Of a stretch of 64,000 bases of DNA, positions 46,382 to 47,908 are shown one piece after another. The DNA is taken from positions 1 through 64,000 of the IMG/VR virus record IMGVR_UViG_3300044446_000019, one strand, 5' to 3'. Origin of the DNA: a virus. The stretch's first letter is position 1; each line of letters starts with the position of its first letter. The translations under genes and the position numbers were made by a program. Below the pieces are notes generated by a model. The model was given only the letters and a program-made list of their open reading frames with translations. It searched no databases and had not been told where the DNA came from.

Positions 46382-46456
46382 GTGGCGGCAGGTCCGATAA
46401 CTAGCCTAGTGCCGTTAGCATGACGCATCCAGGATGGAAACTCACCCTGCCGCCAC
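46382..46456 (+). ncRNA. Hairpin between tRNA-Ile and tRNA-Tyr
   Basis: Perfect 11-bp stem gtggcggcagg/cctgccgccac encloses 53 bases with no T arm or anticodon arm. It may be a processing element or a decayed tRNA; it shares the 11-bp stem length of the element at 46653. Confidence 0.5.
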
Positions 46457-46735: not shown

Positions 46736-47464
46736 ATGACTGAGCTACATCAGATCCTCGCCATCGAGAAGGGCACCAAGGCACGCAGCTACCGTGCTCT
46801 GACCGATGCGCACCACCTGCTACAGAACCAGACGAAGCTGTCGGGTCTGTCGCGTACCTACCGGCCGAAGGATGACGACGGTGACCGTCTGCCGTCGGAG
46901 ACCACCCGGCTGCAGGTCCACGCGAGTGATGTCCTGCAGACGGTTCGGACTGCACTGACTGAGCTGTTCGACGTCGAGCTGACGAAGGACGCGGCGAACC
47001 AGGTGGCGATGGCTGACATTGTGGTCGACGGCATCATCATCGCCAGCAACGTTCCGGTGTCCTATCTCCTGTTCCTGGAGAAGCAGCTCACCGACCTGAA
47101 CACGTTCGTGGACAAGCTTCCGGTGCTGGACCCGGCTGAGTCGTGGGAGTTTGACTCGGGCAGCGATGCCTACGTCACCTCCGTGGAGACGACCCGGACG
47201 AAGAAGATCCCGCGCAACCACGTGAAGGCTGAGGCCACTGACCGCCACCCGGCGCAGGTGGAGCTGTACTTCGAAGATGTGACGGTCGGCTACTGGACCA
47301 CGATCAAGTTCTCTGGGGCACTGCCGCAGTCGGACGTGAACGAATTCAAGACCCGGATCGTGAAGCTGTCCAACGCGGTCAAGGAAGCCCGCGAGGAGGC
47401 GAACAGCTTCAGTGTGGAGCGTCGCACCATCGGCCAGGATGTGTTCAACTACCTGTTCGACTAG
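46736..47464 (+). CDS. Conserved actinobacterial protein embedded in the tRNA array
   Basis: 242 residues, ATG after gaggag. LAIEKGTKARSYRALTDAHH, LSGLSRTYRPKDDDGDRLPS, VPVSYLLFLEKQLTDLNTF and KIPRNHVKAEATDRHPAQVE belong to a highly conserved family present in many actinobacteria and their phages. I do not know its biochemical function. Its place inside a tRNA array, just before tRNA genes of abnormal order, suggests a role in tRNA or translation biology; that is inference only. Confidence 0.75.
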   Translation: MTELHQILAIEKGTKARSYRALTDAHHLLQNQTKLSGLSRTYRPKDDDGDRLPSETTRLQVHASDVLQTVRTALTELFDVELTKDAANQVAMADIVVDGIIIASNVPVSYLLFLEKQLTDLNTFVDKLPVLDPAESWEFDSGSDAYVTSVETTRTKKIPRNHVKAEATDRHPAQVELYFEDVTVGYWTTIKFSGALPQSDVNEFKTRIVKLSNAVKEAREEANSFSVERRTIGQDVFNYLFD

Positions 47465-47471
47465 CTACACC

Positions 47472-47540
47472 GGGTCAGGCATGAGCAAGCCCCAGGACAC
47501 TGTCTACACCCTGGTCCAGGTTCGATTCCTGGATGACCCA
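47472..47540 (+). tRNA. Degenerate tRNA-like element
   Basis: 69 nt in normal order: six-pair acceptor gggtca/tgaccc, a minimal ggc/gcc D arm without the GG loop, anticodon stem ccagg/cctgg with a 13-nt loop (acactgtctacac), one-base variable region and a perfect T arm ccagg ttcgatt cctgg. Positions 8-9 are missing. Probably a decayed tRNA or tRNA mimic rather than a normal decoder. Confidence 0.45.
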
Positions 47541-47599
47541 CTGCCCTTCGGGGCTGGCACAAGTTCAACTTCAAACTCAAGCGCAAGATAAATGGACGC

Positions 47600-47672
47600 C
47601 TCGTCCAGTGCAGGTTCGAAGCCTGCCCCCGGCTCCACATGCCGGGGTAGCCCAATCGGTAGAGGCAGCGAG
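47600..47672 (+). tRNA. Candidate circularly permuted tRNA A
   Basis: The 3' half comes first: ctcgt (anticodon stem 3' strand, 47600-47604), ccagt, T arm gcagg ttcgaag cctgc, acceptor ccccggc, T73 and CCA to 47637. After a 3-base linker the 5' half follows: acceptor gccgggg (47641-47647), ta, a D arm with cggta, A26, then gcgag (47668-47672). The acceptor pairs 7/7 and the anticodon stem 5/5 (one G-U). The anticodon loop cannot be assembled unambiguously, so the amino acid is unassigned. Confidence 0.65.
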
Positions 47673-47730
47673 GACCAAATTCAACTTATGCCTCAATCTC
47701 AAGCTAAGCCGTCAGTGCACCGGCTCGACC

Positions 47731-47837
47731 GGTTCCGATCTGTTCTTCCAGTCGCGGGTTCGATCCCCGCCCCGGCCTCCAACGTGGCCGGGTAGCTCAG
47801 TGGTAGAGCGGGAAGATTGAAACTCTAAGACGGAACC
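47731..47837 (+). tRNA. Candidate circularly permuted tRNA B
   Basis: The same permuted order: 3' half cttcc (47745-47749), agtc, T arm gcggg ttcgatc cccgc, acceptor cccggcc, T73, CCA to 47781; 4-base linker acgt; 5' half ggccggg (47786-47792), ta, D arm gctc..ggta..gagc, G26, ggaag (47811-47815). Acceptor pairs 7/7 and anticodon stem 5/5. The flanks pair as ggttccg (47731-47737) with cggaacc (47831-47837), extending the anticodon helix outwards as expected for a pre-tRNA whose ends meet in the anticodon loop. Confidence 0.7.
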
Positions 47838-47877
47838 TTAAACGCCATCGGTGCGCCTAGGTAACACAAACATAAAC

Positions 47878-47908
47878 GGGGCCGGTCGTCGGATATGCGA
47901 CCGGCCCC
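47878..47908 (+). terminator. Hairpin closing the tRNA array
   Basis: An 11-bp GC-rich stem ggggccggtcg/cgaccggcccc with a 9-base loop, 21 bases before the next gene. No T run; likely a 3' end or processing signal of the tRNA transcript. Confidence 0.6.

Follow-up and report, generated by a model that had tools for sequence, protein, structure and literature searches.

Genes in which the acceptor-bearing 3' half of a tRNA precedes its 5' half have been described in algae and one archaeon; a short variable linker of 1-74 bp separates the halves, and splicing takes place at bulge-helix-bulge motifs (PMC3978253). Permuted tRNA-like modules are also already known in bacteria, namely in the Y RNAs: in the tRNA-mimicking Rfam family YrlA (RF02553), the acceptor lies between a preceding T arm and a following D arm, and a stem replaces the anticodon arm. 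A further related system is the two-piece permuted tmRNA (RF04321), whose permuted gene encodes a tRNA-like acceptor domain that a linker divides in two. The phage RNA presented here shares the order of halves and the linker with the permuted tRNA genes, but its modules are deprived of an anticodon loop and their ends are set in conserved outer helices. It shares the arm order and the replaced anticodon arm with YrlA, whereas it contains two modules in many loci (YrlA has one), the additional elements P1, Px and a 3' hairpin, and often variable linkers and an encoded CCA, and it is tied to the DUF7873 protein, not to Ro60. In comparison with the RF04321 tmRNA, the modules have an intact D arm (with a GG loop) and a stem at the anticodon position; the RF04321 model gave no match at E<10 in the 64,000-nt stretch of DNA analyzed here (the window) and reached 19.3 bits in Gordonia phage GodonK against a threshold of 47.

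The window corresponds to positions 1-64,000 of the IMG/VR virus fragment IMGVR_UViG_3300044446_000019. The first-pass annotation had interpreted 47600-47672 (module A) as a circularly permuted tRNA gene. The segment consists of a T arm, a 3' acceptor strand, CCA and, 3 nt further, the perfectly complementary 5' acceptor strand with a D arm. Re-reading of the sequence agreed with the annotated coordinates and pairings, including the intact T arm and D arm (47610-47626 and 47650-47666). The acceptor strand ccccggc (47627-47633) is followed by the discriminator T (47634), the encoded CCA (47635-47637), cat and gccgggg (47641-47647). At the anticodon position, ctcgt (47600-47604) pairs with gcgag (47668-47672), and one further pair, c47599-g47673, extends this stem. 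A second permuted tRNA-like module (module B) occupies 47745-47815 on the same strand. The features of the locus are collected in Table 1.

Table 1. Features of the DUF7873 gene and of the adjacent RNA with two permuted tRNA-like modules (positions in the window)
Feature	Position	Strand	Support or remark
DUF7873 (PF25283) gene, 242 aa, immediately 5' of the RNA	46736-47464	+	Pfam E 1.4e-103
P1 helix, 5' strand (GGCA)	47556-47559	+	pairs with 47689-47692
Module A, anticodon-position stem, 3' strand (cctcgt)	47599-47604	+	sequence
Module A, T arm (gcagg ttcgaag cctgc)	47610-47626	+	sequence
Module A, 3' acceptor, discriminator and CCA	47627-47637	+	sequence, acceptor covariation
Module A, linker (cat) from CCA to 5' acceptor	47638-47640	+	homologue linkers 3 to about 110 nt
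Module A, 5' acceptor (gccgggg), D arm, anticodon-position stem 5' strand (gcgagg)	47641-47673	+	sequence, homologues
P1 helix, 3' strand (TGCC)	47689-47692	+	in conserved stretch separating modules A and B
Px helix, 5' strand (gcaccgg)	47717-47723	+	pairs with 47848-47854
Outer stem of module B, 5' strand (ggttccgat)	47731-47739	+	pairs with 47829-47837
Module B, anticodon-position stem 3' strand, variable agtc, T arm, 3' acceptor cccggcc, T, CCA	47745-47781	+	
Module B, linker (acgt)	47782-47785	+	sequence
Module B, 5' acceptor ggccggg, D arm, anticodon-position stem 5' strand ggaag	47786-47815	+	
Outer B stem 3' strand, conserved TTAAACG motif, Px 3' strand	47829-47854	+	
3' hairpin, 11 bp, loop TCGGATATG	47878-47908	+	similar hairpins, with GG-rich loops, in homologues

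A strict scan for a T arm, a 3' acceptor, a complementary 5' acceptor within 60 nt and a D arm identified exactly two places in the window, module A and 47754-47809 in module B, both on the plus strand; 40 dinucleotide-preserving shuffles of the window, scanned on both strands, gave no matches. No tRNA of normal order was found at either module by ARAGORN or the Rfam tRNA model. With the halves swapped, as the first-pass annotation had proposed, and joined by a generic 7-nt loop, modules A and B folded as cloverleaves (-32.8 and -34.0 kcal/mol, respectively) and were accepted by ARAGORN. The program also accepted a chimera of the 5' half of A and the 3' half of B, hence its verdict alone is non-discriminating.

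The same pair of modules was found 3' of the same 242-aa gene in the Gordonia phages GodonK and Phendrix. The DUF7873 protein used as a bait led to 256 homologous loci from phages and bacteria, some of them duplicates (257 records with the window). At least one strict module was present on the DUF7873 strand in 232 of the 257 records and on the opposite strand in one; most of the records without a strict module were truncated contigs or had modules that, as judged by eye, deviated slightly. The linkage was also seen at the level of genomes: DUF7873 was detected in 75 of 121 Streptomycetaceae genomes, with one match per genome, and a covariance model of the B half matched at full length in the same 75 of 75, always on the same strand and immediately 3' of the gene. 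The scores ranged from 73 to 148 bits in 74 genomes and amounted to 50.7 bits in G038, where the DUF7873 gene is fragmentary. In the 46 genomes lacking DUF7873, the matches listed were solely partial and did not exceed 57.5 bits, a full-length match below about 45 bits being possible. Besides the RNA and DUF7873, no other recurring neighbor gene was noticed in 80 bacterial loci. In a Microcoleus phage (L012, 4184-5461), no permuted module was found beside the DUF7873 gene, which adjoins an apparent IscB-type nuclease and a probable guide RNA region. The public record of Klebsiella phage FBKp24 (L016, 4018-4097) labels part of the RNA as tRNA-Sup-TTA.

The homologues were used to look for the compensatory changes suggested as a check by the first-pass annotation, and such changes were present in all four stems (acceptor, T, D and anticodon position) as well as in tertiary pair 15-48. 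As the strict scan itself demands paired acceptors, the acceptor test was anchored on the T and D arms only; all 7 of 7 pairs were formed in 49 of 57 distinct combinations, in comparison with a mean of 3 and a maximum of 8 after shuffling. The anticodon-position stem, not a selection criterion, had 5 of 5 pairs in 131 of 274 modules (shuffled mean 12), and pair 15-48 was A-U or G-C in 264 of 274 (161 shuffled). In the alignment of 40 B-half sequences, 92.0% of cells were paired versus 70.1% after shuffling, and double-change cells numbered 335 versus 102, with none of 500 shuffles as high. Px (99.2% of cells paired, double changes in 5 of 6 pairs) and the outer B stem (91.9%, 9 of 9 pairs) were among the best-supported helices and neither had been used in selecting the sequences, whereas P1 received moderate covariation support, several pairs exceeding all shuffles in 71 loci. 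The claim that the halves pair only in the permuted order held as well: in 71 loci, the 5' acceptor of A formed 2-6 of 7 pairs with the 3' acceptor of B and 7 of 7 with that of A, the latter being partly a selection criterion, and no better normal-order partners were found. Altogether, the covariation among the homologues, with the compensatory changes and pair 15-48, demonstrates that the permuted L-shaped, tRNA-like fold of modules A and B is real and excludes chance.

The flanks of both modules run on into a conserved core made of P1, the outer B stem, Px and the 3' hairpin; at its ends, module B is flanked by helices of 9 bp and 6 bp that contain internal loops. Conserved motifs beyond the module ends include CTATCGCTC, ATCGACC and TTAAACG. 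The conserved spacing, P1 and Px suggest that modules A and B would reside on a single molecule. Only one strict module was present in many loci, and in a close relative (L003, 6840-6890) unrelated sequence takes the place of module A while module B is retained. In many loci, a perfectly paired hairpin lies 17-100 nt past the RNA, often without a T run; its GG-rich loop reads CGGATATG, TGGACAT, TGGCTAC or similar. The putative pseudoknot H1 (GCTGAA/TTCAGC) was dropped since its covariation was no higher than composition gives, and the idea of a group I intron or permuted intron-exon arrangement, prompted by the flanks, found no support in Rfam. Past the DUF7873 stop codon, at 47470-47541, there is a degenerate normal-order tRNA-like element with a 6-bp acceptor and a T arm and no proper D arm; comparable oddities follow the stop codon in L003, L009, L012 and L015. 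A weak CRISPR-repeat-like match (24.8 bits, below threshold) lies at 46414-46441 between two tRNA genes.

In tRNAs, position 33 is nearly always U. Among the homologues, T occurred at this position in 16% of the A modules and 40% of the B modules, no conserved anticodon or anticodon loop was detected, and the stem spacing varied. The discriminator differed by locus (A 110, T 100, G 50, C 14), so that the type of tRNA would change between loci. Hence, the permuted order asserted by the first-pass annotation stood and proved to covary among the homologues, but the identity as a tRNA gene was not supported, as the modules have no anticodon loop and end in the helices of a larger RNA. The cutting and ligation in the anticodon loop that it envisaged are likewise unsupported, given the non-conserved loop and the ends that continue into conserved helices and motifs. 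The conserved order, the acceptor, T, D and anticodon-position stems, the tertiary pair, the often encoded CCA and linkers resembling those of the known cases (PMC3978253) would fit two true circularly permuted tRNA genes, with RNase P and RNase Z removing the linker and functional tRNAs as the product; given the above observations, together with the bulge-helix-bulge splicing and the algal and archaeal origin of the known examples, we regard such genes as very improbable. The modules could also be relics of tandem tRNA genes, since the junction of two identical genes in normal order appears permuted. Such junctions do yield sub-threshold YrlA and R1 matches and tRNA arrays are present in the phage, but the outer halves are absent (gccgggg and ggccggg each occur once within 4 kb), the normal-order pairing is poor and the covariation is strong in the permuted order, which makes this origin hardly conceivable.

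The only relevant Rfam match was YrlA, with 44.7 bits (E 3.6e-8) for module B and 24.7 bits for module A. The YrlA gathering score of 69 bits was not reached in the window or in 20 other loci, where no family besides tRNA exceeded its own threshold. Junctions of identical tandem tRNA genes (L257, L258 and L260) gave YrlA matches of about 41 bits (E about 2e-6 to 4e-6), hence a sub-threshold score does not establish a Y RNA, and its use as proof was abandoned. Classical YrlA Y RNAs, in which the modules would act as tRNA-like effector domains on a stem bound by a host or phage Ro60 (Rsr), nevertheless have the same permuted module in their favor. The Ro60 (TROVE) gene was present in 70 of 121 Streptomycetaceae genomes; a comparison of lists placed it in 51 of the 75 DUF7873-positive genomes and in 19 of the 46 negative ones, so that Ro60 is not a requirement but may still be involved. 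It was missing from 11 phage records, the window record and 11 of 21 assorted host genomes. Furthermore, Streptomyces matches beside TROVE genes (e.g., G067, G063 and G108) covered only the tRNA-like part of the B-half model, without the outer helices, and are probably true YrlA RNAs, whereas the DUF7873-linked RNAs matched over the whole length. These data make the assignment to YrlA rather improbable. The constant position of the RNA, on the same strand just 3' of the DUF7873 gene, is also what a cis-acting 3' UTR element of the DUF7873 mRNA would show, its modules drawing RNase P or ribosomal proteins for processing or autoregulation. The size, the two modules, the conserved core and the 3' hairpin go beyond the needs of a simple processing signal, and we find this explanation unlikely.

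The reading that we favor, and consider likely, is that the two tRNA-mimicking modules are parts of a single structured noncoding RNA, about 300 nt long, that is encoded just 3' of DUF7873 and functionally tied to it. The occurrence of this RNA almost always just behind DUF7873, in hundreds of phages and bacteria, suggests that it probably forms one half of a so far undescribed RNA-protein machine and is not a working tRNA. Each module would hang on the stem that stands in for the anticodon arm, with the outer helices (P1, the outer B stem and Px) connecting the modules to the core. DUF7873 may bind this core to form an RNP. The structure of the protein was predicted confidently (pLDDT 92.4), but Foldseek matched the model to no solved fold in the PDB at E<0.001, so its RNA binding is putative. 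The modules, in turn, might recruit proteins recognizing the tRNA elbow or acceptor, such as RNase P, tRNA-modifying enzymes, EF-Tu or the ribosome.

The acceptors were constant at 7 bp in the homologues while the linkers ranged from 3 to 110 nt. CCA was encoded in 131 of 274 modules, with C at position 74 in 92%; none of the five ordinary tRNA genes of the window encodes CCA. In short linkers, pyrimidine-purine-T precedes G1, and C(-3) is 90% conserved in these forms. Judged from the sequences, such features would be compatible with maturation by tRNA-processing enzymes and would fit equally well a functional closed loop that is conserved and stays uncut. Cleavage of the linkers by tRNA-processing enzymes plausibly could produce CCA ends and a multi-piece RNA. 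If both linkers were cut, the RNA would end up in three pieces and carry two mature CCA ends, which could be charged or could dock at ribosomal sites; we consider this proposal rather unlikely. The DUF7873 RNP would then be a double-headed tRNA mimic that phages and bacteria share and that has no relation to Ro60, a corollary that is just as unlikely.

Among the papers searched, preprints and most subscription papers excepted, none dealt with DUF7873 or with phage-borne permuted tRNA-like RNAs. The RNA described here points to an undescribed family with an obligate-looking protein partner, present in most of the Streptomycetaceae sampled and in phages with Gordonia, Arthrobacter, Rhodococcus, Vibrio, Klebsiella and cyanobacteria as hosts. 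Tandem identical tRNA genes emerge as a source of false Y RNA calls. DUF7873 gains its first functional context, tRNA mimicry by permuted modules extends past the Y RNAs, and the purpose of such modules becomes testable in the genetically tractable Streptomyces.
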